64,000 nt of DNA, taken from contig CAJXCU010000005.1 in the NCBI GenBank assembly GCA_913051935.1, forward strand, positions 1 to 64,000. The letters run 5' to 3'. The notes under the pieces are model-generated. The model did not search any database. It was not told the DNA's origin and saw nothing but the letters and a program-made list of their open reading frames with translations. How positions within the stretch are numbered: position 1 is the stretch's first letter; each line of letters starts with the position of its first letter. Position numbers and translations under genes: made by a program. The DNA comes from an uncultured Flavobacteriales bacterium. GTDB taxonomy: Bacteria > Bacteroidota > Bacteroidia > Flavobacteriales_D > Crocinitomicaceae. This document shows positions 11,386-34,227 of this stretch, one piece after another.

Positions 11386-11991
11386 GTAATAAACTCCGCT
11401 AATTCTTCTTCTTCGCAGCAGCATGTCTTTAAAAGAGACGTTTATTCGAATTTCAGCTCCTAAAGGAAGTTTTTTTATTTTTCTGATAACTGCCTGGCTT
11501 AATTGAGCGCTTTTGAGTGTCACAACTTCTTTCTTATTTAGAATTATTGAAAATTCGGTTATATTAAAAGTCATTGCAGGCCACGCCTCACTTGGTCGAA
11601 TTACTGGAACCAGGTTTGTAGTGTCCAATGTTCCTTCAGGGCCAACATCCCCTATAAACAATACCATTTGTGGCCCTTTTAATATCTTAAAAGAAAACTT
11701 ATCAATAAATATTTTTTCTCTGCTTCCGTCTGGGCTATCCACATATGAAGCAACATTCAGCAGTCCTGTTGATCGAGTGACAGTATCTAATACCTCTATT
11801 AAATATTGACCCATTTTATTTGTGGGGTGTATTTTAAGAGTTCCATCAAAACATATCGGCGTTCCTTGTTTTATATAAAACTCGTTCACAATGTCGGTGT
11901 AAAAAACAGAGTCTTTTTTACTATTAAAAGTATAGTTTTGTGCCTTGATACTAAAAGAAAGTAAAGAAAAAACAACAACTATTTTAAACAT
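11380..11991 (-). CDS. Small secreted protein, weak resemblance to the GldM C-terminal domain
   Basis: A 203-residue protein with a signal peptide (about 1-17, ending IKAQ). I do not recognise it with certainty. The pattern from about residue 90 onward (FKILKGPQMVLFIGDVGPEGTL, then FNITEFSIIL and a closing basic loop LRRRRISGVYYL) recalls the C-terminal immunoglobulin-like domain of the gliding motor protein GldM, but the rest of GldM is absent. Its ATG overlaps the rpiB stop codon as TAATG, so it is translationally coupled to rpiB. Its 3' end overlaps that of hemW by a few bases in convergent orientation. Function unknown. Confidence 0.7.
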   Translation of the reverse strand: MFKIVVVFSLLSFSIKAQNYTFNSKKDSVFYTDIVNEFYIKQGTPICFDGTLKIHPTNKMGQYLIEVLDTVTRSTGLLNVASYVDSPDGSREKIFIDKFSFKILKGPQMVLFIGDVGPEGTLDTTNLVPVIRPSEAWPAMTFNITEFSIILNKKEVVTLKSAQLSQAVIRKIKKLPLGAEIRINVSFKDMLLRRRRISGVYYL

Positions 11992-12425
11992 TAAGAACAG
12001 GGTATTTTATTTACTCTACGTTGGTGCCGTCCGCCTTCAAATTCAGTCTTAACAAAAACATCTATACATTTTTTCGCGTTTGAGGTTGATATATAACGTG
12101 CCGGCAGAGATAAAACGTTGGCGTCATTATGCTGCCTTGCTAATTCGGCAATTTCTGAGGACCAACACAGAGCGGATCTAACACCGCTATGTTTATTGGC
12201 AGACATGCTTATTCCATTGCCAGACCCGCAAATTAAGATGCCTTGGATACCTTCTTCTTGTACCATCTTTGCCAAAGGGTGTGCATAATCAGGATAATCT
12301 ATACTTTCGGTTGAATGGCAACCAAAATCAACAACATTATATCCTTTCTTTTCTAAATACAAAACGAGCTCGCATTTAAGATCATAACCAGCGTGATCTG
12401 CGCCTATTGCTATTTTATTCTTCAT
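11991..12425 (-). CDS. rpiB: Ribose 5-phosphate isomerase B
   Basis: Interconverts ribose 5-phosphate and ribulose 5-phosphate in the pentose phosphate pathway. The family pattern is clear over 144 residues: IAIGADHAGYDLK at the N-terminus, then YPDYAHPLA and GSGNGISMSANKHSGVRSALC with the active-site cysteine-containing loop ILICGSGNG. It is the last gene left of the A+T-rich gap at 12426-12851 and is transcribed away from it, coupled to the downstream small secreted protein gene. Confidence 0.93.
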   Translation of the reverse strand: MKNKIAIGADHAGYDLKCELVLYLEKKGYNVVDFGCHSTESIDYPDYAHPLAKMVQEEGIQGILICGSGNGISMSANKHSGVRSALCWSSEIAELARQHNDANVLSLPARYISTSNAKKCIDVFVKTEFEGGRHQRRVNKIPCS

Positions 12426-12598
12426 TTTTTAAAATTAAAATTAATTCATATTTAAATCAATATTGTTAATTAATCGTTGATAACTATGTGTATCTTTTTT
12501 TTCAAAAGAATCTTTTTTTTTCAATCAAAACCTGTTTTTAAAACCTCTTATTTGCTCGGATTATTTATACCGTTTTTTTCAATGTTTTATGCACAAAA

Positions 12599-12630
12599 AA
12601 TTATAAACATTGTTTTTTAATTATAAACAT
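12599..12630 (+). repeat. Direct repeat AATTATAAACAT, two copies 20 bases apart
   Basis: The 12-mer occurs at 12599-12610 and 12619-12630. The start-to-start distance of 20 bases is about two helical turns, so a protein binding both copies would meet the same DNA face. Each copy contains TTATAAACA, one base off the DnaA box consensus, and they follow an exact box at 12587-12595. This suits DnaA sites or an operator pair. Confidence 0.55.
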
Positions 12631-12829
12631 ATTAAGAAGGATTAGAAAATACATTATTTGTTAATTTATTGTTTACAAGGCGAATACCTAAATATAAAAT
12701 GTTCATTTCTTTTCAAAATTGTTTATTTGTTTCAAAAAAACTCTTTTTCTTTTTTTTATTCACAAATGAACACTCTTAATAATAGTAGTAATTTTAATTA
12801 ATTCTTTTTTTTATAAAATATTAAACGCT

Positions 12830-12837
12830 TAATCTTG
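12830..12837 (+). promoter_or_regulatory. Probable -7 element for the DUF4175-RsbW-like-ybeY operon
   Basis: TAATCTTG matches TAnnTTTG at seven of eight positions and ends 14 bases before the ATG at 12852. The extreme A+T content around it makes chance matches likely. Confidence 0.35.
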
Positions 12838-12851
12838 TTCATAAGTAAAAA

Positions 12852-15800
12852 ATGAATAATCTGGATCGTATAAAAGACGAGCTCAATGCATTTATTGAGA
12901 AGTTTTATAAAAATCAATTTATAAAAGGGATTATTGTTTCTTCTATCGTTTTTTTATGTTCTTTATACTTAATCTCTTTGGTTGAGTTTTTTGGACGTTT
13001 CAACTCAACAGTTCGATTTTTCTTTCTTTCTTTCTTCGTTGTAATTAATTTTCTTTTTGCCTTAATTTATTGTCTTGTACCCCTTTTCAATTATATTAAG
13101 CAATCACGTAGGTTAAGCCCAGAGAAAGCCTCTAAAATGATTGGTTTAATTTTTCCTGATATTGCCGATCAATTAACAAACTTGTTGCAATTAAATAGAA
13201 GGTTGTCAATTCAGGAAGATGAGCAGGTTAATCTTTTAAGGGCATCCATCGAACAAAAAGCTGAAAAAATAAGTGCAATTGAATTTTCGAGTGGAATATC
13301 TTACAATGAAAATAAAAGGTATTTAAAATATTTTTTACCCGCCATTCTCATATTTTTTATTTTTTTAGGTTTTTTACCCGAATTATTTACTCAAGGATCC
13401 TTTCGTGTTTTAAATTTTTCAAAAGAATTTAAAATTGAAGCACCTTATGAATTCATGTTAAACTCTGCAGATATTAGTATTACAGAAGGTGAGGATATTC
13501 ATTTAAATCTCAATTTAATCGGAGAGGCTTTTCCTAACAAATTATATATCAATTCTAGTCAAGGTACATTTCTAATGACTAAAGTGAGGTCAAATTTATT
13601 TGAATATACTTTACGAAATCCTAAAAACAACGAAACATTTTATTTCTCTTCAAAAGAACACAAAAGTGACACCTATACAGTAGAAGTTTTAGGTAAAACT
13701 GTTTTAGGTAAATGGGATGCAAAAATAACCTATCCCCCATACTTAAAAAGACAAGATGAAGTAATTAAAAATTCAAGTGACTTTTCTGTACCTGAAGGTA
13801 GTATTATAACATGGAGTGGAAGAGCAAAGAATGTATCTAAGGTGCAGATTGAATTAGATTCAATCAAAGAAACATTTTTAAAATCCGGATTTACATATCG
13901 TAAACAATTTATAACAAGTAGTTTATTAAACGTTTGTCTTACGAACAAATACACTGAAAAACGAGATACTTTAAGTTATAAAGTGTTCGTTGTAAAAGAT
14001 GAATTCCCATCTATTTCTGTTACCGAAAAAAGAGATAGTACACGTAATGGTGCCTTTTACTTTGAAGGAGTTGTTTCAGATGATTATGGTTTAACGGCAT
14101 TAGATTTTAATTATTCGATAAACTCTATGAATAAAAGCAATAGAGCTGAACGAATAAAAATTCTAAATGTAAAAGGAACTAAAAATAGTTTTAGATATTA
14201 TATTGATTTTAACCTATTGGATATTTCTTTAAATGACGAAATAAGCTATTATTTTTCTGTGAAAGATAATGATGGTTTTAACGGTTACAAAACAACAAGA
14301 AGTGGGCAATTTTCTTACAAGCTTCCAGATCTAAAAACATTGAACAAAAAAAGAGAAGAGGAACAAGGGGATATTAAAAAAGAAATAAGTGATGTATTGA
14401 AAGCATCTCAAAAATTTCAGGAAGAAATAAAGACATTAAAAAAAGAGCTTAGAAATAGTAAGTCAAATCAGTGGAATAAGCTTAATGATCTTAAAAATTT
14501 AAAAGACCAACAACAAGAATTATTGAATAAACTAGAAAGTATTCAAGAAAAAATTGAAAATTCCACACAAGAAAAAAATAAACTTTCTGAACTGGATAAG
14601 GAATTATTAAAGAAACAGGAATTATTAGAACAATTACTTAATGAAGTAATGGATGACGAATTAAAAAAATTATTGGAGGAATTAGAAGAACTACTAAAAA
14701 ATAATGAGCAGAAGGAGTTAAATGAAAAAATGGAAGAACTTGATCAAAGTGCCGAGAATATGGAAAAGCAACTTGATCGCAGTCTGGAAATGCTTAAAAA
14801 ATTACAAGTAAATGAGAAAATAGATGATTTAGAAAAAGAACTGAAGGAATTGTCTAAAAAACAAAAGTTAATTGCGGAAGAAAAGGAGAAGTCATTAGAA
14901 GAACAAAATAATATCAATAAAGCATTCAATGAAATACAAGAGGAATTAGAAGAATTAAAAGAGCTAAATAAAAAACTTGAAACACCTCTGAAAATAGAAG
15001 ACACAAAATCAACTGAAGAGCAGATAAGTGAAAACCTTAAACAGGCTGAAGAGCAAATTCAAAAAAATAAAAAAAATAAAGCAACGAAAAATCAAAATTC
15101 AGCGGCACAGCAAATGCAAGAACTTGCCGAAAAATTAGATAAAATGCAAAAGGATTCTGCACAAAAACAGGAAGAGGAAGACATGGATGATTTAAGAAAA
15201 ATTCTTGAGTCTTTAATTTTACTGAGTGTTGAACAAGAAGAAGTAATGGAAAATATTCAAAGGGTTCAAGTCAATGATCCTGCTTTTCGAAAATACGGTA
15301 GGGTTCAAAGACGAATTAATGACGATACTGATATTGTTAAAGACAGTTTATTAGCATTAGCAAAACGTCAGCCGATTCTCGCTACGTTTATTGATAAAGA
15401 ATTGGGTGATTTAGAATTTAGTCAGGATAAAACTATAGATTTTATAGGGGATAGAAAGAAACGAAATGTTACTGAAAATCAACAGGGCGCAATGACATCT
15501 TTCAATAATTTAGCCCTTCTATTAAATGAGGTTTTACAGAGTATGCAAGCTCAAATGCAAATGATGACGCCTGGTAGTGGTCAGTGTAATAAACCAGGAG
15601 GTAAAGGAAAACCAAAGGCTGGTCCGGGTATGAAACCAGGAGACATGAAAGAAATGCTGAAAAATCAGCTGAATCAACTGAAAAAAGGCATGAATAAAAA
15701 AGGTGGTAAAGATGGAACGAGTGGAGATAACGGTTCAGGTGGAATAGGCAATAAGGGTTTAGCTAAAATAGCAGCAGAACAATCAGCGATACGTAAAAAA

Positions 15801-16166
15801 CTGGAAGAATTACGAAATAAATTAAACAAAGAGGGTAAGGGCGCAGGAAATGGCTTGAACCCTTTGATAGAAGAATTAAAAGAGCAACAAAAAAATATTG
15901 TCAATAAAAATATTACTAAAGAAACAATTAATAGACAGCAGGAGATTTTAACAAGGTTATTGGAAAGTGAAAAAGCATTGATAGAAAGAGGGTTTGAGGA
16001 AAAAAGAGAATCTAAAACAGGAAAAAACACCCAAAATAGTAACCAAAATCGGTTTAATCAGTATAACAAAGAAAAACTAAAGAAAATCGAATTATTACGT
16101 TATGCTGAGCCATCCTATAAAAAATATTATAAAGAAAAAGCAAACGAATATTTTGATGAAAATTAA
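12852..16166 (+). CDS. DUF4175 family membrane protein with long coiled coil
   Basis: A 1104-residue protein of a Bacteroidota-specific family with no known function. Two N-terminal hydrophobic helices lie at about 24-46 and 55-80, a third at about 160-178, followed by a beta-rich external domain (about 190-490). From about 495 to 760 it is a very charged Glu/Lys/Leu/Gln coiled coil. A later region contains Gly/Pro/Lys/Met-rich low-complexity sequence (about 890-985) and a basic, Asn-rich C-terminus. The gene is visibly richer in A and T than neighbouring housekeeping genes, mostly through Lys, Asn and Ile codons. It is followed after 14 bases by the RsbW-like ATPase gene and then ybeY, which suggests one transcript. 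A structural or cell-envelope role is plausible but unproven. Confidence 0.8.
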   Translation: MNNLDRIKDELNAFIEKFYKNQFIKGIIVSSIVFLCSLYLISLVEFFGRFNSTVRFFFLSFFVVINFLFALIYCLVPLFNYIKQSRRLSPEKASKMIGLIFPDIADQLTNLLQLNRRLSIQEDEQVNLLRASIEQKAEKISAIEFSSGISYNENKRYLKYFLPAILIFFIFLGFLPELFTQGSFRVLNFSKEFKIEAPYEFMLNSADISITEGEDIHLNLNLIGEAFPNKLYINSSQGTFLMTKVRSNLFEYTLRNPKNNETFYFSSKEHKSDTYTVEVLGKTVLGKWDAKITYPPYLKRQDEVIKNSSDFSVPEGSIITWSGRAKNVSKVQIELDSIKETFLKSGFTYRKQFITSSLLNVCLTNKYTEKRDTLSYKVFVVKDEFPSISVTEKRDSTRNGAFYFEGVVSDDYGLTALDFNYSINSMNKSNRAERIKILNVKGTKNSFRYYIDFNLLDISLNDEISYYFSVKDNDGFNGYKTTRSGQFSYKLPDLKTLNKKREEEQGDIKKEISDVLKASQKFQEEIKTLKKELRNSKSNQWNKLNDLKNLKDQQQELLNKLESIQEKIENSTQEKNKLSELDKELLKKQELLEQLLNEVMDDELKKLLEELEELLKNNEQKELNEKMEELDQSAENMEKQLDRSLEMLKKLQVNEKIDDLEKELKELSKKQKLIAEEKEKSLEEQNNINKAFNEIQEELEELKELNKKLETPLKIEDTKSTEEQISENLKQAEEQIQKNKKNKATKNQNSAAQQMQELAEKLDKMQKDSAQKQEEEDMDDLRKILESLILLSVEQEEVMENIQRVQVNDPAFRKYGRVQRRINDDTDIVKDSLLALAKRQPILATFIDKELGDLEFSQDKTIDFIGDRKKRNVTENQQGAMTSFNNLALLLNEVLQSMQAQMQMMTPGSGQCNKPGGKGKPKAGPGMKPGDMKEMLKNQLNQLKKGMNKKGGKDGTSGDNGSGGIGNKGLAKIAAEQSAIRKKLEELRNKLNKEGKGAGNGLNPLIEELKEQQKNIVNKNITKETINRQQEILTRLLESEKALIERGFEEKRESKTGKNTQNSNQNRFNQYNKEKLKKIELLRYAEPSYKKYYKEKANEYFDEN

Positions 16167-16997: not shown

Positions 16998-17013
16998 TGT
17001 TTCACGTGGAACA
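16998..17013. promoter_or_regulatory. parS site 1 (ParB/Spo0J binding site)
   Basis: TGTTTCACGTGGAACA is the reverse complement of an exact match to the parS consensus TGTTnCACGTGAAACA. It lies two bases after the ybeY stop codon. Together with the second site it forms a 17-base perfect inverted repeat. parS sites normally cluster near the chromosome origin and load the ParB/SMC segregation machinery. Confidence 0.85.
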
Positions 17014-17039: not shown

Positions 17040-17047
17040 TAATTTTG
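17040..17047 (+). promoter_or_regulatory. -7 promoter element for mnmG, overlapping parS site 2
   Basis: TAATTTTG is an exact TAnnTTTG match. Transcription would begin around 17052, inside the second parS site, with a leader of about 16 bases before the mnmG ATG at 17068. ParB bound there could interfere with the promoter. Confidence 0.5.
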
Positions 17048-17061
17048 TTCCACGTGAAACA
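17046..17061. promoter_or_regulatory. parS site 2 (ParB/Spo0J binding site)
   Basis: TGTTCCACGTGAAACA matches the parS consensus at every position. It is inverted relative to site 1, with centres 48 bases apart, and ends six bases before the mnmG start codon. No parA or parB gene is inside the window. Confidence 0.88.
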
Positions 17062-17067
17062 AACAGG

Positions 17068-18939
17068 ATGTTAACAAAGTACGATATTATTGTTGTTGGT
17101 GCCGGACACGCCGGCTGTGAAGCAGCACATTGCGCCGCAACCATGGGAAGTAGTGTTCTTTTGGTGACTATGAACATGAATACGATTGCTCAAATGAGCT
17201 GTAATCCAGCCATGGGCGGTGTTGCTAAGGGTCAAATATTGCGCGAGATTGACGCGTTGGGTGGGGGCTCTGGTATTGTGAGTGATAAAAGTGCTATCCA
17301 GTTTCGAATGCTCAATAAATCAAAGGGTCCTGCAATGTGGTCTCCAAGAAGTCAAAATGATAGACAGATGTTTTCAACGGAATGGAGGATGCTTCTTGAA
17401 CGCAACAAAAATGTAGATTTTTGGCAGGACATGTGTACGGGAATTATCGTTGAGAAAGGAAAGGTTTTAGGAGTTAAAACCGCTCTAGGAATAGAAGTTA
17501 AATCAAAAACAGTCATACTTACCAATGGTACGTTTCTAAACGGCCTTATACATTTAGGTGAAAAGCAGTTTGGTGGAGGAAGAGCAGCAGAAAGAGCATC
17601 TACTGGAATAACAGAGCAGTTAGAAGAGCTTGGTTTTTCTTCAGGAAGAATGAAAACCGGGACCCCTCCGCGGGTTGATGGAAGATCATTAAATTATTCT
17701 AAAATGGAAGAGCAACCAGGAGACCCGTCTCCATCTAAATTTAGCTTTTCAGATACAAAACCATTATCGAAACAACGCCCTTGTTTCATAACTTACACAA
17801 ATCCTGAAACACATAAAACATTAGAAAAGGGTTTTGACCGTTCTCCAATGTTTAATGGCGCAATTAATAGTACCGGACCTAGATATTGTCCTAGTATTGA
17901 GGATAAAATAAATCGTTTTGCCGACAGGGAAAGGCATCAGATTTTTGTTGAGCCAGAGGGTTGGGACACCATTGAAATTTATGTAAATGGATTCAGTACC
18001 TCTTTACCAGAAGAAATTCAACTCGAAGCAATGCGAACAATACCTGGTTTCGAAAAAGTCAAAATGTTTCGCCCTGGTTATGCCATAGAGTATGATTATT
18101 TTCCACCGACACAACTTAAACACACGCTTGAGACAAAACGTATTGATAACTTATATTTCGCAGGTCAAATAAATGGAACGACAGGTTATGAAGAGGCCGC
18201 TTGCCAGGGATTAATGGCTGGAGTAAATGCAAGTTTGAAAACAAGAAATAAAGCCCCCTTTCTTTTGTCTAGAAGTGAGGCTTACATAGGAGTATTAATA
18301 GACGATTTGATTACAAAAGGAACGGACGAACCATATCGTATGTTTACAAGTAGAGCCGAGTATAGAATTTTATTGCGTCAAGATAATGCCGATATAAGGC
18401 TTACCCCCCTTGGTTTTTCGATAGGTCTGGCTAGTGAAGAAAGAATAAATAGGGTTAATTTGAAAATAGAGGGCACACAAAACTTTAAAAAACATTTAAG
18501 AAAAATAGCTATTTCTCCGGCTGACGTTAATCCGTTTTTAAAGAGTATAGGTAGTGCGCCTATCTCACAGAAAGTAAAGCTTTCTTCAATTATTACCCGG
18601 CCTAAGGTGTATTTAAAAAACCTGTTAGATCTCTCTACGGAGGCAAAGGAAAAGGCTTTAATTGCAAATACCACGCATGATGAAATTTTGGATCAAGCAG
18701 AAATACAAATGAAATATGATGGGTATATTGAAAGAGAGCAAGACCAGGCCGAAAAAATGAATCGTTTAGAAAACGTAAAAATCCCATTGGATATGGACTT
18801 TAAAAAATTAAACAGCCTCAGTTCTGAAGCAAAAGAAAAATTATCGGAAATTAAACCTGTTACAATCGGACAAGCTTCACGGGTGTCAGGTGTTTCACCA
18901 AGTGATATTTCTGTACTTTTAGTATATCTTGGAAGATAA
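17068..18939 (+). CDS. mnmG: tRNA uridine-34 carboxymethylaminomethyl modification enzyme MnmG (GidA)
   Basis: FAD-dependent partner of MnmE that modifies the wobble uridine of several tRNAs. The dinucleotide-binding motif [11 protein letters not shown] lies at about residues 8-18, followed by [11 protein letters not shown] and the signature [10 protein letters not shown] near residue 200 and [14 protein letters not shown] near 368. At 623 residues it is full length, with the C-terminal helical domain present. The gene is often close to the origin in bacteria, and here it directly follows two parS sites. Confidence 0.96.
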
Positions 18940-19047: not shown

Positions 19048-20139
19048 TTATTGAAAAACGCGCACATAATCCACAGCCATTGTTTGTGGGAAGACCGTAT
19101 TTTGGTTTGGGCTACCTGGCCAGTTTCCTCCAACAGCAACATTCAAGATGAAAAAGAAATTATTTTGAAAGGCATTTAGGTTTGACCCACTGATATTTAT
19201 ATCGTGATACTGAATATCATCTCTTAAAAACCTAATTGAAGTAGCATCCCATATAATTGAAAAGACGTGAAACTCCTCTGCATATATTTCTCCTACCGAT
19301 AAAGAACTAGCATCTCCATAAGAAGCTTGCGTTCCATTATCGTTCCAATGAACAGTGCCGTATATGGTTCTGTCGTTAAAAGCCCCGCCTCCAACAAGCT
19401 CCATGATGTCTATTTCACCACAAGAAGGCCAACCAACGGTATTAATATTTTCGCCAAGCATCCAAATAGCCGGCCAATAACCTTGCCCATAAGGTAGCGC
19501 TGCCCGAACATCTATACGTCCATACTTAAAAAATTGTATGCCTTGGGTTTTTATCCTAGAAGAGGTATAGTTGAATGATGCGGTGGGTTCTTCTTTTGCT
19601 GTTATTTTCAATAGACCGTCTTCAACAACCGTATTTTCCTCTTTATAAAATTGAAGCTCATTGTTTCCCCAGCCCCAAGAACCATTACCAAGGTCGTGAG
19701 TCCAGTCCGAAGACAAGGAGGATCCGTTGAATTCATCACTCCAAACTAAAGAATAACCGGGATAGTTATCTGGGGTTGTGTATCCTGTTGTGGGGATTCC
19801 GCCCGTATACCCGACGTCTGAAATAGCGATAAATTCAAATAATTCTATGTAATCATAAACAGTTACATGAGCACGAACTTTTACTAGATATTCACCAACC
19901 GCGGAAAAAGTGTAAAATGCGCTACCGTCATTAGATTCGACGAAGGAGGAATCTCCATTGTCATAGAACATAAAGCTGTAAAAATTTGCACCTTCAGCTG
20001 TGGCTTGTAGCTCAACCAACCCTTCATCTATAGTAATATTTGTATTTAGGTTCGTGGGAAGTATAATAGACGACGTGGGGGTTTTGGGATCGCATGACAG
20101 AAGAAGGGCAAGACAAAGTAAAAGTAAAAAAAACTTCAT
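19048..20139 (-). CDS. Glycoside hydrolase family 16 lipoprotein, probable endo-beta-1,3-glucanase (laminarinase)
   Basis: Predicted to cut beta-1,3-glucan such as laminarin at the cell surface. The signal peptide ends in LLSC, giving a lipid-anchor cysteine near residue 16. A beta-sandwich domain of about 85 residues comes first, then the GH16 domain from about residue 130 (SLVWSDEFNG) to the end. The catalytic block is GEIDIMELVG with Glu242 as nucleophile, Asp244, and Glu247 as acid/base. The insertion of Met between Ile245 and Glu247 is the form found in laminarinases rather than lichenases, and PYGQGYWPAIWML is also typical. The ATG at 20139 is preferred over a GTG two codons upstream. 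It is the last gene of the Sus-type operon. Confidence 0.88.
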   Translation of the reverse strand: MKFFLLLLCLALLLSCDPKTPTSSIILPTNLNTNITIDEGLVELQATAEGANFYSFMFYDNGDSSFVESNDGSAFYTFSAVGEYLVKVRAHVTVYDYIELFEFIAISDVGYTGGIPTTGYTTPDNYPGYSLVWSDEFNGSSLSSDWTHDLGNGSWGWGNNELQFYKEENTVVEDGLLKITAKEEPTASFNYTSSRIKTQGIQFFKYGRIDVRAALPYGQGYWPAIWMLGENINTVGWPSCGEIDIMELVGGGAFNDRTIYGTVHWNDNGTQASYGDASSLSVGEIYAEEFHVFSIIWDATSIRFLRDDIQYHDINISGSNLNAFQNNFFFILNVAVGGNWPGSPNQNTVFPQTMAVDYVRVFQ

Positions 20140-20160
20140 AAACACTTGTTTTTCAAATAA

Positions 20161-21030
20161 TTACTGCTCTGGCTTCAGCCGAAGATACCACATGAGTTCC
20201 CCTGTGTGATGGCCAAAAGCAAGGTACATCGAGTTTTCAGTTAGTTCAATAATTTTATACGTATTAACACCTGTCCCAAAACCGATGAAAGAATTACCCG
20301 AAACAGTAATTGTGGTATCAGAACCCTCTATTACGCTCCACGACTCATTAAGCTGGTTGTTATATGGAGCGGTGAAATCAGCAAGGTTTTCAAAAGACCC
20401 AGGGTATTGGTCCGCAATCGTGTTATGTACATATACATCACCATTTGTAATCATATCAAAGCGATATTCGTTGAGGTAAAAAATAAAACGATCGTCGTAC
20501 ATGCCACATCCTGGTTTTGCCATTTCCGGAGCCGACCACCATTCTGGAGTATATCCTAGGGGAGAGACAGGGTCGGGCCCAACTCCGAAGTGGCCTGCTG
20601 TTGTTGAATCAATATACCACGATTTAAAACCAGGCCCGTTTATGCCGCCAGTTAACATGGTGAAAATAGGATTATCTAAAAGACCAGGATCTGTTTGATC
20701 AATAATTATTTCTTGGCTACTTGTTTTGCTTCCCCCACTATTGAAAACGCTTAGGTTAACAGTATAATTACCAGCATTGGGATAAATAGAGGAAACAACA
20801 GCGCCCTCACCGGTTAACCCGTTGCCAAAATCCCACATATTGATAATATCAGGGTTTGTAGCGGTAAAAACAATTACATTGTCATTTGTATCAGAAGGCG
20901 CGTATGTGAAAATAGCATCAGTCTCTTTCGGTGGAGACCCCAGCTGTGGGTTGTCTTTTTTACAAGCGCTAATTACGACTGTCAACAGAATTGAAATAGA
21001 TGTAATGAAATTGAGGCATTTATTTTTCAT
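20161..21030 (-). CDS. PKD-domain lipoprotein, likely surface glycan-binding protein of the locus
   Basis: A 289-residue lipoprotein: signal peptide 1-22 with Cys23 in the lipobox ISAC. A PKD domain covers about 40-115 (NMWDFGNGLTGEGAVV). The remaining 170 residues are rich in Trp, Tyr and Gly (PEWWSAPEMAKPGCG, GHHTGELMWYLRL) and resemble the jelly-roll part of proteins found beside SusD in laminarin-type loci. It lies between susD and the GH16 gene, with 9 and 21 bases of spacing. Binding of beta-glucan at the cell surface is inferred from context, not shown. Confidence 0.75.
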   Translation of the reverse strand: MKNKCLNFITSISILLTVVISACKKDNPQLGSPPKETDAIFTYAPSDTNDNVIVFTATNPDIINMWDFGNGLTGEGAVVSSIYPNAGNYTVNLSVFNSGGSKTSSQEIIIDQTDPGLLDNPIFTMLTGGINGPGFKSWYIDSTTAGHFGVGPDPVSPLGYTPEWWSAPEMAKPGCGMYDDRFIFYLNEYRFDMITNGDVYVHNTIADQYPGSFENLADFTAPYNNQLNESWSVIEGSDTTITVSGNSFIGFGTGVNTYKIIELTENSMYLAFGHHTGELMWYLRLKPEQ

Positions 21031-21039
21031 GATTTATTT

Positions 21040-22509
21040 TTAATATCCGTTATTTTGAGACCAATTACCTCCTGCCAAATCTATCTCTAAGGTTGGTATT
21101 GGAAACAATTCATGTGTTCCTATTTGAAAGCCCTCTATTTCAGATCCGGCCCTTCCCCATCTGACAAGGTCAAAAAACCAATGTCCCTCACACGCAAGCT
21201 CAAGACGACGCTCGTTGAAGATGTCATCAATAGAACTTACAGTTATTGTTTCTATCCCCACCCTATTTCTAACCTCATCAACTTTGTTTTGTGCTTCAGA
21301 GATGTTGCCATTTTGAAAGTGGGCTTCAGCGGACATTAATAAAACGTCTGCATAGCGAATAACGCGGTAGTTTACAGGGCTTGTAAGGTCGTTATCTGGC
21401 AAACCAAGTTCGTTTTGTCTTTTAATATATTTGTTATTGTAATACCCTGTGTGACCTCCGGCCCCAATACCATATGTAATGTTTTCAGGGTTGGTCTGCG
21501 CAGCAATAAAAGCGTCTATATCTAGAATTGTCATATCTCTCCTTGGGTCAGTTGGGTCAAAGGCATCATATAGGTTTTGTGTGGGTAGGTTATAACTATT
21601 TCCATCTCCATATATTGGCCCGTCATACTGCCGAATACCTTGAAACCCCGGCCCGGCATTACCCTCTAAACAGATTAGACAACCATACCCGCCTCCTTCA
21701 GCACCAGTATATTCAACATCAAAAACAGTTTCACTGTTATTTTCGTTTGCAACCGAAAACAGGTCTGTGTAATCGTCAATTAAACTGTAAGTTCCGCTAT
21801 TGATTACCTCATCTAGAACATTTGCCGCATCGCTATACTTTTTTTGGTACAGAAGAATTTTTCCTAAAAGAGCCATTGCCGCACCTTTTGTTGCTTTTCC
21901 TTTTATGAGTGAAACCTGATCTAAAACTAAAGACGCGTCAAGCAGGTCTTTTTCTATTTGCGCATACACTTGAGAAACAGGTGCTCTTTCTATTTCTGTT
22001 ACCTCCTGAGCCCCAATTCTTTCGTTAATAATTAAGGGAACATCACCAAAAAACTTGACAAGCTCGAAGTAATAAAAAGCACGCAGAAACTTTGCCTCTG
22101 CAAGAATTTTATCTTTTCCAACAAACTCAATATTGTCTTTATTTTCCATAATAAAATTACAACGCGTTATTCCGGCATAGTTCCATCTAAACAAATTGCG
22201 AAGCTCTGTATTTACACCACCATGTGTCATTTCGTCTATTTGATGAAGCCCCTGTGTGTCGTTCACGCTTTCTCCACCGGCAATTGTATTATTGCTAGCA
22301 ATCTCACTAATCCAAACAGACAGAAATGTTCCTTGAAGAAGGTCATATGCGCCAATAAGGGCTTGTTCGTAGTCTTCAGGAGACTGAAAATAGTTTTCAG
22401 CATCTTGTGTATATGGAGGGTTTACAGTTAAAAACTTATCGCACCCTGAAAAAACCAAGCCACAAATTAAAACCGCAAGGCTAATTAATCGAGTTTGTTT
22501 ATTTTTCAT
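21040..22509 (-). CDS. SusD/RagB family nutrient-binding outer membrane lipoprotein
   Basis: Surface lid protein that captures glycan and passes it to its SusC partner. The signal peptide ends with Cys23 in FSGC. The family pattern is clear: N-terminal FLTVNPPYTQDAENYF, TPR-like helices such as AKFLRAFYYFELVKFFGDVPL near residue 135-155, and the C-terminal RYADVLLMSAEA and RRLELACEGHWFFDLVRWG. The length of 489 is normal. It begins three bases after the susC stop codon. Confidence 0.94.
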   Translation of the reverse strand: MKNKQTRLISLAVLICGLVFSGCDKFLTVNPPYTQDAENYFQSPEDYEQALIGAYDLLQGTFLSVWISEIASNNTIAGGESVNDTQGLHQIDEMTHGGVNTELRNLFRWNYAGITRCNFIMENKDNIEFVGKDKILAEAKFLRAFYYFELVKFFGDVPLIINERIGAQEVTEIERAPVSQVYAQIEKDLLDASLVLDQVSLIKGKATKGAAMALLGKILLYQKKYSDAANVLDEVINSGTYSLIDDYTDLFSVANENNSETVFDVEYTGAEGGGYGCLICLEGNAGPGFQGIRQYDGPIYGDGNSYNLPTQNLYDAFDPTDPRRDMTILDIDAFIAAQTNPENITYGIGAGGHTGYYNNKYIKRQNELGLPDNDLTSPVNYRVIRYADVLLMSAEAHFQNGNISEAQNKVDEVRNRVGIETITVSSIDDIFNERRLELACEGHWFFDLVRWGRAGSEIEGFQIGTHELFPIPTLEIDLAGGNWSQNNGY

Positions 22510-22512
22510 CTT

Positions 22513-25500
22513 TTAAAATTTAATGTTTAAGCCACCCATAATTGTTTTTGCCTGAGGATAAAATCCATAGTCTACACCTGCAGATAGCGTTCCTCCGCCA
22601 ATGTCTGGGTCAAACCCAAGATATCTGGTTAAGGTAACTAGGTTGTTACCTGAAATATAAAACCTTAAAGATTCAATTTTAAGCTTACGAAGGATTTTGC
22701 TCTTTTTGGGAAAGGAATACCCTAATTGAATATTTCTTAAACGAATAAACGAACCGTCTTCGACATAATAATCAGAGAAGGAGGTATTTCTGGTTTCACC
22801 TGTGGTTAGCCTTGGATGTTCATTGGTCGACCCGGGGCCCGTCCAGCGATTAATAACATAGTCTAGTTGATTCGCATATGGTTGTTGTCTTTCATAGTTT
22901 CTGATAATTTCTTGTCCAATGGCAGCATAAACATTAGCGCCTAAATCAAAACCTTTGTAGCGCAGATTAAGTGCAAACCCCATTGTAAAGTCGGGTATAG
23001 GTGATCCTAAAAAAGTTTTATCAAGATTGTCCCCAAAGGTAATTTCACCATCACCATTTTGATCAATAAAAATAAAGTCTCCCGGTCTTGCGCCCTCTTG
23101 AACCACGTCGTGGTTATCTATCTCCTCTTGTGTTTGAAAAACACCTGCGGTTTGTAAACCATGAAAGTACCCAATTGCGAAGCCTTCTTCAAAGCGTGTT
23201 GCGACATCCCCCCCAACGCTAAATTGTGCTCCTGGCAAATAGTCTACTCCCTCGGGCACACTTGTCACCTTATTGGTAATATGTGAAAAATTCAAGCTGA
23301 TGTTTGTTTTAAAGTCTCTTGAGGGCTTGTTGTGATAGGCAACTTCCAGCTCAACACCTTTGTTTGACACATTGCCAGCATTTATTATAGGCGATGAGCC
23401 TCCTGGGCCATAAGAACCAATCACACCCGATACATCTGGTTGAAATAAAAGGTCGTTGGTGTTTTTGATAAAGTAATTTGTAGTGAGGTCTATTGCGCCC
23501 CACATTGTCAAGTCCAAACCAGCGTTAAATTGTCTAGTTGTTTCCCATTTTAAGTCCGGGTTTGCAGCACGACCGAGAGCTGTTCCAATAACAATGAGGT
23601 CGTCAAAAACATAAACCCCTTCTCCGTTAAGGAGTGCACGATATGCAAAGTTCTCTATTTGGTCATTTCCAGAAACACCAAAACTTAATCGGAGCTTCAT
23701 AAAATTAATCGCATCAAGATTAAAAAACCGTTCCTCAGAAACAATCCAAGCTGAAGAGAGTGTCGGGAACAGGCCATATCGGTTGTTCGGACCAAACTTA
23801 CTAGAACCGTCACGACGTAGTATACCAGAAACAATATATTTAGAATCGTAGGCATATTCCGCTCTAATAAAAGCTGAAACCAAACGCTCTTTGAATTCGA
23901 ATGAACCAACATTATTTAAGTAGCCCCCTGTTGCTGTATTTGCAGAGATGTCTGCATAGTCCCACGAGTTGTTGGGAATGTTGAAGGCCGTTCCGTTCAA
24001 CGCGGCCCCCTTTCGCTGAAATACAGACGCGCCGAGAGTTGTTTTCACCTTGTGCGCCTCATTAAAAGTTCTGTCATAATTAAAATAACTTTCAAATGTA
24101 AGGTCGCTGAATGAAGACCTCTGCTCGTATACACTCGCACCACGTTCAACAAAAACACTGTCGGCAATCTCAACAAGAGGGGATTCTAATTCCGCATTTA
24201 GTGCAGAATTAGCGTATTTTCCTGGACCATACCATGCTAAAGGAGAAAAGCTTTTTGCTTCTACAACAGCATAGTTATAATTAAACCTATTGGTAAACGA
24301 TAAGTGCTTGTTAAACTTGTAGACCAACTCTTCCTTTCCAACAAATTTATCAGCAATACTGTAATTATAAGAGTTCTCCATTTGCGCAATGGGATTAATT
24401 ATATCAGCGACTTCTTCCAGATAGCTATAGTTTCCATCAGGGGTCCGAATTGGCTCGTTTGGAAAGGCATTAATAGTGTTGTATAAAACAGACCCAATGC
24501 CGTTTTCAGATAGCGTAGATCGGTTGTCGCTTGAAAATAAAAAGACAGAATTGAGAACGAGTTTTTTGGAAAGATCTGTGCTTAAGTTTAGCCGTGCATT
24601 ATATCTTGAGAAGTTGGCTTTTGAGCCACCAACAATTCCTTCTTGCGCATAATAGGTCGCCCCTAGAGAGTAGCGCGTGTTTTTTGTTCCTCCACTAACA
24701 CCAAAGTTGTAACTCTCAACAGGTGATGATTGAAATACTGAATCTTGCCAATTTGTTCCTTCGCCAATTGCTGTATTTACAAACGGCATGCTCTGCCCGC
24801 CAAATGCAAACATTTCGTTTTTAATTACAGCGTATTCTTCAGCGGTTAGAAGGCCGAGCTTATTTGCTGTTTGTTGAACCCCCTTGTACATACTAAATTC
24901 TATTTTGGGTTTCGCATTAAGTTTGCCCTTTTTTGTTTCAACAATGATTACACCATTAGCTGCACGCACACCGTAAATACCCGCGGTGGCGTCTTTGAGC
25001 ACATTGATCGATTCAATATCATTTGGATTTAATGCATTTAATCCTTCAGAATCATATACAACCCCGTCTACTAGAATCAAAGGGTCATTATCTCCAAAAG
25101 TTGAAAGCCCTCTAATCCGAATGCTAGATGAGCCACCAGGCGAGCCTGAGTTTGTATTAATTGCGACGCCAGAAACCTGCCCTTGGAGGGCTTGGTCCAT
25201 TCTTGAAAGGTTGAGTTTTTCAATATTTTCTCCTTTTACTTTTGCAGCGGCACCAGTAAGCTCTTTATTTCTTGTGCTTCCGTATCCAACTACCACCACT
25301 TCATCAAAAATTTGAGACTCGGTCTCCATAGCTACGTTTAATTCTATCTGATCAGCGACCAGGAATTCTTTAGTTTGATATCCGATATACGAAAAACGCA
25401 AAACAAGCCCATCCTTTTTTTGTGTAGTAATGCTATATTTTCCATTTCCATCGGTAACGACACCATCTGTTGTATTGGCAAAAACAACCTTTACCCCAGG

Positions 25501-25611
25501 AAAAGTTTGCTGTTTTTCATCCGAGACAGTTCCGCTTACAGTGATTTCTTGCGCGGAAGCATTTGTAAAAACAAAGCATGCTGCCACAAAGAAAATAAGT
25601 AGGTGTTTCAT
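22513..25611 (-). CDS. SusC/RagA family TonB-linked outer membrane transporter
   Basis: TonB-dependent porin that imports oligosaccharides released at the cell surface. After the signal peptide (1-20, ending SAQ) comes a carboxypeptidase-like regulatory domain (about 23-100), the SusC signature VVVGYGSTRNKELTGA near residue 108, a plug domain with GLSTFGDNDPLILVDGVVYD, and a 22-strand-type barrel to the C-terminus, which ends in a beta strand with terminal Phe. Length 1032 is typical. It is the first gene of a four-gene minus-strand operon with susD, the PKD lipoprotein and GH16. No regulator gene (hybrid kinase, SusR or ECF sigma) adjoins it. Confidence 0.95.
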   Translation of the reverse strand: MKHLLIFFVAACFVFTNASAQEITVSGTVSDEKQQTFPGVKVVFANTTDGVVTDGNGKYSITTQKKDGLVLRFSYIGYQTKEFLVADQIELNVAMETESQIFDEVVVVGYGSTRNKELTGAAAKVKGENIEKLNLSRMDQALQGQVSGVAINTNSGSPGGSSSIRIRGLSTFGDNDPLILVDGVVYDSEGLNALNPNDIESINVLKDATAGIYGVRAANGVIIVETKKGKLNAKPKIEFSMYKGVQQTANKLGLLTAEEYAVIKNEMFAFGGQSMPFVNTAIGEGTNWQDSVFQSSPVESYNFGVSGGTKNTRYSLGATYYAQEGIVGGSKANFSRYNARLNLSTDLSKKLVLNSVFLFSSDNRSTLSENGIGSVLYNTINAFPNEPIRTPDGNYSYLEEVADIINPIAQMENSYNYSIADKFVGKEELVYKFNKHLSFTNRFNYNYAVVEAKSFSPLAWYGPGKYANSALNAELESPLVEIADSVFVERGASVYEQRSSFSDLTFESYFNYDRTFNEAHKVKTTLGASVFQRKGAALNGTAFNIPNNSWDYADISANTATGGYLNNVGSFEFKERLVSAFIRAEYAYDSKYIVSGILRRDGSSKFGPNNRYGLFPTLSSAWIVSEERFFNLDAINFMKLRLSFGVSGNDQIENFAYRALLNGEGVYVFDDLIVIGTALGRAANPDLKWETTRQFNAGLDLTMWGAIDLTTNYFIKNTNDLLFQPDVSGVIGSYGPGGSSPIINAGNVSNKGVELEVAYHNKPSRDFKTNISLNFSHITNKVTSVPEGVDYLPGAQFSVGGDVATRFEEGFAIGYFHGLQTAGVFQTQEEIDNHDVVQEGARPGDFIFIDQNGDGEITFGDNLDKTFLGSPIPDFTMGFALNLRYKGFDLGANVYAAIGQEIIRNYERQQPYANQLDYVINRWTGPGSTNEHPRLTTGETRNTSFSDYYVEDGSFIRLRNIQLGYSFPKKSKILRKLKIESLRFYISGNNLVTLTRYLGFDPDIGGGTLSAGVDYGFYPQAKTIMGGLNIKF

Positions 25612-33578: not shown

Positions 33579-33648
33579 AAAAGTAGATTAAGTTAAACGA
33601 ACAATATCTGAACAGAATGCACAGATATAAAAAAGCTAAAAAAAGAGA

Positions 33649-33741
33649 TTATTTCTTCTTTTTATGGCGGTTTTTTCTAAGTCGTTTTTTTCTTTTGTGT
33701 GTAGACATTTTGTGTCTTTTTCTTTTTTTACCGCTTGGCAT
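33649..33741 (-). CDS. 30-residue very basic protein of the bS22/mS38 (AURKAIP1/COX24 C-terminal) type
   Basis: A complete reading frame of 30 codons plus stop: ATG at 33741, TAA at 33649. The protein begins MPSGKKRKRHKMSTHKRKKR and consists of Lys, Arg and His for about three quarters of its length. The core pattern KRKRHKM-x-x-HKRKKRLRKNRHK fits the COX24_C/AURKAIP1 motif of mitochondrial mS38 and the small mycobacterial bS22, which bind the small ribosomal subunit near the decoding helix. A consensus promoter element lies 65 bases upstream. I recall near-identical short proteins in many Flavobacteria; the ribosomal role is inference by family. Confidence 0.78.
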   Translation of the reverse strand: MPSGKKRKRHKMSTHKRKKRLRKNRHKKKK

Positions 33742-33805
33742 AACTATATATTTTAATGTGTATAAAAATTTCGTCTAAATAAATGCTTCTTTAAAGAGAG
33801 GGATG

Positions 33806-33813
33806 CAAAGGTA
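33806..33813 (-). promoter_or_regulatory. -7 promoter element for the small basic protein gene
   Basis: On the minus strand TACCTTTG is an exact TAnnTTTG match and is followed by CATCCC. Transcription would start near 33801, giving a leader of about 60 bases. The element lies just after the end of the HU-type gene. Confidence 0.5.
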
Positions 33814-33837
33814 TAGATAAAATTTTAAAAAATAATT

Positions 33838-34128
33838 TTATCCGACAGAGACGTTGTTTTTTACCTCGTCAACAAAAACTTTGGCAGGTTTAAAACTTGG
33901 GATATTGTGAGCCGGGATAATGATTGTCGTGTTTTTGGAAATGTTTCTTCCCGTTTTTTGAGCACGTTCTTTAACGACAAAGCTTCCAAATCCCCTTAAG
34001 TATACATTCTGTCCTTCTGATAAAGATTTTTTAATAGAGTGCATAAACGCTTCAACAGCACGCAATGCTTCCGACTTCTCTAATCCTGTTTCCTCTGATA
34101 TACCTGCTACAATCTCTGCTTTTGTCAT
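33838..34128 (-). CDS. HU/IHF family DNA-binding protein
   Basis: A 96-residue histone-like protein that bends or packages DNA. The pattern is clear: MTKAEIVAGISEETGLEKSEA at the front, then GQNVYLRGFGSFVVKERAQKTGRN leading into the DNA-inserting arm with IIIPAHNIPSFKPAK, where the Ile-Pro pair is the usual wedge. Bacteroidota have several paralogues, so HU versus IHF naming is arbitrary. The ATG at 34128 is chosen; an upstream TTG extension would cover the promoter. Confidence 0.92.
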   Translation of the reverse strand: MTKAEIVAGISEETGLEKSEALRAVEAFMHSIKKSLSEGQNVYLRGFGSFVVKERAQKTGRNISKNTTIIIPAHNIPSFKPAKVFVDEVKNNVSVG

Positions 34129-34161
34129 AATTAATCTATTGTTTAAAATCTTGAATTGGTA

Positions 34162-34195
34162 CAAAAATATATTTTACATTTCTTATTTTAGTCAA
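34162..34195 (-). promoter_or_regulatory. Promoter of the HU/IHF-type gene
   Basis: On the minus strand TTG (34195-34193) and TATTTTTG (34169-34162) are separated by 23 bases. Both match the Bacteroidota -33/-7 pattern, with expected transcription start near 34157, about 30 bases before the ATG. Confidence 0.55.
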
Positions 34196-34227
34196 TTGAC
34201 ACAAAAAATTAACATATTAAGGTTTAA

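Follow-up and report, generated by a model that had tools for sequence, protein, structure and literature searches.

The question raised by this locus is where replication of the chromosome begins, and whether one A+T-rich intergenic gap (positions 12426–12851) is itself the origin or lies merely close to it. The window, that is, the whole stretch of DNA analysed, consists of bases 1–64000 of contig C5 (70160 long) from a draft genome of 2.36 Mb in 100 contigs, and the closest named relatives are metagenome genomes of the Flavobacteriales (Crocinitomicaceae). Origins in the Flavobacteriaceae have been predicted to lie away from dnaA, near mnmG (PMC11278836, PMC12843772). Our analysis indicates that the gap is almost certainly the chromosomal replication origin. 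The gap and its neighbourhood are composed as follows.

12426–12851, no strand: oriC (almost certain), comprising the entire A+T-rich (18% G+C) intergenic region; skew change point, box density and conservation.
11991–12425, minus strand: rpiB, encoding ribose-5-phosphate isomerase B, an origin-flanking marker gene; NCBIfam TIGR01120 above cut-off, and synteny.
12852–16166, plus strand: gene for a 1104-aa DUF4175-like protein, origin-flanking in its own genus; Pfam PF13779, barely over the cut-off.
16998–17013, no strand: parS site 1 (TGTTTCACGTGGAACA); sequence scan.
17046–17061, no strand: parS site 2 (TGTTCCACGTGAAACA); sequence scan.
17068–18939, plus strand: mnmG (gidA), a known origin-neighbourhood gene; NCBIfam TIGR00136.

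A preliminary description of this DNA had presented the gap as a candidate chromosomal origin, a proposal now supported by the position of a skew switch and by the density of DnaA boxes. It put the G+C content at about 18% (18.1% when computed), had the genes on both sides pointing away from the gap, and placed mnmG nearby, parS 4.2 kb off and dnaA elsewhere, all of which agrees with the map: the gap is bounded by the diverging rpiB (minus strand, ending at 12425) and 1104-aa gene (plus strand, starting at 12852), beyond which come an RsbW-like ATPase gene, ybeY, the two parS sites (32 bp apart) and mnmG, and dnaA is on a separate contig, C10. The gap had also been called the only long one, which needs qualifying; it is the sole very A+T-rich one, but the gap at 33579–34227 is longer (649 nt, 30% G+C). 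This longer gap carries one TTATACACA at 33757; searched for RNA families and tRNAs, it gave no match, and the one ORF in it (108 aa, TTG start) is doubtful. A search of 12426–12851 for RNA families, tRNAs and convincing small ORFs found none. The parS sites adjoin mnmG in most relatives, and no further parS match with up to one mismatch was found in the whole draft genome. The parB gene is on contig C17, and is far from the origin in two single-contig chromosomes (G038 and G054).

The DnaA boxes outside the conserved core of the gap are listed below.

12587–12595, plus strand: DnaA box TTATGCACA, first of the upstream cluster; position kept in relatives.
12601–12609, plus strand: DnaA box-like TTATAAACA, second of the upstream cluster; alignment with relatives.
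12621–12629, plus strand: DnaA box-like TTATAAACA, third of the upstream cluster; alignment with relatives.
About 12836–12844, minus strand: DnaA box-like TTATGAACA, adjoining the DUF4175-like gene; survey of relatives.
12473–12483, minus strand: conserved CGTTGATAAC block near rpiB, possibly a divergent DnaA box (TTATCAACG, minus strand); six-relative alignment, role putative.

Two exact TTATNCACA boxes had been reported and were recovered at 12587 and 12756, together with the two one-mismatch boxes at 12601 and 12621; three of these (12587, 12601 and 12621) do lie within 43 bases, and these three sites, about 15 and 20 bp apart, hold their positions across six aligned close relatives. The statement that all boxes share one orientation is correct for the four named boxes but not for the fifth, box-like site near 12836, which is on the minus strand. 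Another exact box, at 12280, falls within rpiB. Scanning for strict TTATNCACA does not work in many relatives, and the workable class is TTATNNACA, which occurs five times in the 426-nt gap (11.7 per kb) against 0.29 per kb in 290 kb of the organism's own sequence (contig C5 and eleven 20-kb samples from other contigs). The 426-nt segments ranking highest for box density in these 290 kb all overlap the gap. An equal density in other A+T-rich gaps, named beforehand as evidence against an origin, was not observed, as none of the six further low-GC gaps (1182 nt) contains TTATNNACA. When the gap was dinucleotide-shuffled 3000 times, two exact or five loose boxes were never reached, a result that carries some selection, the gap having been picked beforehand, whereas the ranking over 290 kb is independent of that choice. 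The gap ranks top, the other low-GC gaps are empty and the shuffles fail, and the earlier worry that box matches were partly due to chance is thus answered. A dnaA-linked origin was tried as a separate candidate and rejected: the C10 stretch has no box cluster at dnaA, its box density is far lower, and it fits worse.

The core of the gap resembles a known type of unwinding module, the bacterial basal unwinding system (BUS), in which box-bound DnaA nucleates a filament along one strand of a set of triplets, opening the duplex (PMC8287927, PMC10721633). Its parts are as follows.

12756–12764, plus strand: DnaA box TTATTCACA, first box of the unwinding module; box scan and alignments.
12764–12772, plus strand: weak DnaA box AAATGAACA, second of the pair and sharing 1 bp with the first; almost unchanged across 29 loci of the genus.
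12773–12775, plus strand: spacer CTC (GCC in many relatives); same-genus alignment.
12776–12790, minus strand: five trio-like triplets, a proposed DnaA single-strand binding run; alignments, role suggested by the BUS layout.
12776–12825, no strand: predicted DNA unwinding element, the least stable 50 bp of the 290 kb of own sequence; nearest-neighbour stability.

A BUS was taken to have one or two co-oriented boxes, the best with at most two mismatches and the second with at most four, followed after 0–16 nt by three or more NAN triplets on the trio strand. In the gap, TTATTCACA has one mismatch to TTATCCACA and AAATGAACA has four, and the five central-A triplets begin 11 nt from the first box and 3 nt from the second. 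They read TTA ATA ATA GTA GTA on the box strand and 3'-AAT TAT TAT CAT CAT-5' on the opposite strand. The preferred trio is 3'-GAT-5' (first base G or A); the first bases here are A, T, T, C and C, so the run is a variant rather than a standard trio, and its third triplet varies within the genus. By analogy, the triplets may constitute the run to which DnaA binds as single-stranded DNA. The 50 bp of lowest predicted stability start at 12776.

Both the position of this module and its neighbourhood are conserved in relatives. The strongest block in the six-relative alignment runs from TTTTTATnnACAnATnAACA to CTTAATAATARTARTAA and ends at 12791, and the whole of 12756–12790 (two co-oriented boxes, 3-bp spacer and five triplets) is kept in 29 same-genus loci, with the consensus TTATACACATATGAACAGCCTTAATAATAGTAATAAATTT. 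When 150 genomes of the order were scanned for the core pattern, up to one mismatch being tolerated, 14 of the 15 own-genus genomes matched, each of them once except for one genome with a second, one-mismatch match; in the fifteenth, the contig ends at the gap. The outgroups lack one T, so that an ungapped matrix failed in them. With one missing T allowed, a matrix built from the own genus only was applied to ten outgroup genomes with 200 shuffles; it found the block upstream of rpiB, directed away from that gene, in four of them (G038, G049, G058 and G044), beating 200 of 200 shuffles, and the block was not above shuffles in the other six. The order rpiB–gap–DUF4175 is kept in the genus, and an rpiB-upstream gap is present in the other families examined; across from rpiB, the outgroups have a MORN_2-repeat protein gene (one genome examined) rather than the DUF4175-like gene.

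The location of the skew switch, the box density, the conservation of the block and the low duplex stability are seen directly in the sequence; for DnaA binding, filament polarity, melting, helicase loading and the role of ParB, we infer the following course of events. DnaA would load on the co-oriented cluster at 12587–12629 and on the twin boxes at 12756–12772, from which an ATP-DnaA filament would extend rightwards on one strand of the triplets at 12776–12790 and melt the A+T-rich stretch 12776–12825. Helicases would be loaded at this melted stretch, with forks departing both ways, and ParB bound at parS, 4.2 kb off, would mark the same region for segregation.

The same origin could also be read with reversed polarity, the trios being the plus-strand 5'-TAG-3' repeats (3'-GAT-5' leftwards), served by right-hand boxes such as TTATGAACA at 12836 and unwinding leftwards. 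The plus-strand run TAATAATAGTAGTAA fits 3'-[G/A]A[T/A]-5' exactly, and several relatives retain the minus-strand box near 12836. However, this box is about 45 nt away, as against a spacer of 0–16 nt in known BUS modules (PMC8287927), and is not genus-wide, whereas the left-hand twin boxes are; in H. pylori, moreover, inverting the trio block abolished melting (PMC8235120). With no conserved box close on the right, and given that reversed trios fail in H. pylori, leftward unwinding is less likely than rightward, and we regard it as improbable.

Further evidence for an origin in the gap comes from GC skew, which had been proposed as a check on the candidate. Coding-strand effects made raw 2-kb skew in the window too noisy, and, as genes occupy both strands, GC skew at third codon positions was computed with a strand term, a single change point being sought. 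In the organism's own contig, skew is about −0.12 on the left and +0.08 on the right, and the best points are at 11.4–12.0 kb (residuals 117.4 and 117.6) and the gap (120.8), compared with 167 without a change. At the resolution of genes, the sign change falls no more than about 1 kb from the gap, in a single contig of a 100-contig draft; skew alone does not distinguish the gap from points up to about 1–2 kb to its left, but those points are coding. In a same-genus relative with a 2.2 Mb contig (G017), the analysis covered 400 kb surrounding the locus; the change again lies about 1 kb from the gap, with the best point at 1112.9 kb and the homologous gap at 1114.0–1114.5 kb (residual 603.2 at the gap, 601.6 at the best point and 899 without a change), with bootstrap quartiles of 1112.3–1114.7 kb and a 90% range of 1110.4–1149.6 kb.

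The complete, single-contig 3.98 Mb chromosome of a member of another family (G038) separates the genes that flank the gap in the window. Near its position 1 lie rpiB (883), mnmG (15.5 kb) and parS (17.4 kb), and the DUF4175-like gene, at 3.35 Mb, is 630 kb from the rpiB-upstream gap. The change point, at −1.3 to +0.4 kb, coincides with the rpiB-upstream gap (residual 681.6, compared with 680.4 at best; bootstrap 90% range −4.1 to +2.6 kb), and the opposite switch was located, with coarse sampling, at about 2.0–2.2 Mb, half a turn off. In the single-contig chromosome of a third family (G054), which has a strong strand effect, coarse skew sampling agrees to about 100 kb. A sign change is, then, present at the gap in the own contig and G017, and at the rpiB-upstream gap in G038, where the residuals and gene positions show that the switch follows the rpiB-upstream gap rather than the DUF4175-like gene or mnmG. 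In Prevotella oral taxon 299, rpiB is away from the skew switch, and the linkage to rpiB is therefore not phylum-wide. The 1.77 Mb Prevotella sequence NC_022111.1 is filed as a plasmid in PLSDB; its size suggests that it is a chromosome.

Alternatively, the origin might adjoin mnmG and parS (16.9–19.0 kb), with the gap no more than an A+T-rich neighbour. Ori-Finder 2022 put oriC near mnmG in Mariniflexile litorale (PMC11278836), Algorimicrobium has been treated likewise (PMC12843772), and parS is located there. Against this, the residual in G038 is 757–767 at mnmG/parS, 15–17 kb off, compared with about 681 at the rpiB gap; at the ybeY–mnmG gap it is 137.2 against 120.8 in the own contig and about 624 against 603 in G017. 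Furthermore, the ybeY–mnmG gap is just 72 nt long and has no exact box. An origin at mnmG is consequently very improbable, and since the Mariniflexile and Algorimicrobium papers name a neighbouring gene rather than a site, the two views may in fact agree. The idea that the gap does no more than house divergent promoters and their A+T-rich UP elements, its boxes being chance matches or sites for DnaA as a transcription factor, can scarcely be credited, for although the genes diverge from the gap and A+T-rich DNA raises the number of chance matches, the box count is above that of every shuffle and every other low-GC gap, the skew switch is left unexplained, and the block remains upstream of rpiB in families with a different opposite neighbour.

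In most other families of the order that were examined, rpiB is about 4–6 kb downstream of mnmG and the gap upstream of rpiB points outwards; in the own genus, rpiB and the origin gap are to the left of the DUF4175-like gene–ybeY–mnmG block. These gene orders suggest that a local rearrangement moved rpiB and the origin together. Where the surroundings have been reshuffled, the origin goes with rpiB and not with the DUF4175-like gene.

With the gap taken as the origin, its unusual triplets can be compared with the residues of DnaA that contact the trios. In Bacillus, the box strand reads CTACTATTACTTCTACTA, i.e. 3'-GAT-5' trios opposite (PMC10201434), and the G and A of the trio are held in the complex by R202/E228 and N187/E183 (PMC10721633). 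In all seven Flavobacteriales DnaA proteins sampled (from G000, G002, G015, G017, G038, G049 and G054), R202 is replaced by V, I or S and E228 by V or A; N187 is replaced by H except in G038, and E183, I190, K222 and R264 are kept. Two Bacteroidales DnaA are altered further (E183 to H, N187 to V, I190 to T, and K222 to V or M). The DnaA of Priestia and Paenibacillus match that of Bacillus, and Aeromonas keeps E228 and has K at 202. These few sequences are consistent with an ordinary DnaA origin that may use a Bacteroidota variant of the trio code. That the Bacteroidota code differs in this way, with a DnaA that has lost the residues for a first-base G (R202 and E228) and origins carrying matching 3'-NAT-5' triplets (A, T or C first), is a serious but tentative possibility, falling somewhat short of probable. 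If it were true, the origin and the initiator would have changed together, and should the triplet variation prove genuine, with DnaA varying to match, initiator–origin co-evolution at the single-strand step would become directly testable.

Among the closest known systems is incC of Bacillus subtilis (PMC8287927), with which the gap shares co-oriented boxes, a short spacer, central-A triplets opposite the boxes, an unstable A+T-rich stretch and an additional box cluster upstream. The gap differs in its weaker boxes (of the TTATNNACA types), its 3'-(A/T/C)AT-5' rather than 3'-GAT-5' triplets, and in adjoining neither dnaA nor dnaN. The oriC of Campylobacter jejuni (PMC6052347) likewise has twin boxes with a 1-bp overlap before the unwinding element and a degenerate trio, but is located between dnaA and dnaN, and its flanks are unrelated. 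The predicted origins of Mariniflexile (PMC11278836) and Algorimicrobium (PMC12843772) have in common with the gap the phylum, the gene neighbourhood, a location away from dnaA and agreement with GC skew; here, by contrast, the site is pinned to the rpiB-upstream gap, 4–17 kb from mnmG, with a defined module.

The oriC itself is of a known kind; what looks new is its precise location and the variation in the trios: in a literature search covering few subscription journals and no supplements, no paper was found that sites oriC in the rpiB-upstream gap or describes Bacteroidota trios. Origins in the Bacteroidota are mostly software predictions named for a nearby gene, whereas in this case one gap and a conserved module can be indicated. 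The rpiB-upstream gap together with the block could serve as an oriC finder for Flavobacteriales drafts, for use in growth-rate estimates based on read depth. A minus-strand cluster (19048–25611) that starts about 6 kb from the origin resembles a polysaccharide utilisation locus, its genes encoding a GH16 glycosidase, a PKD-domain protein, a 489-aa protein and a TonB-dependent receptor.
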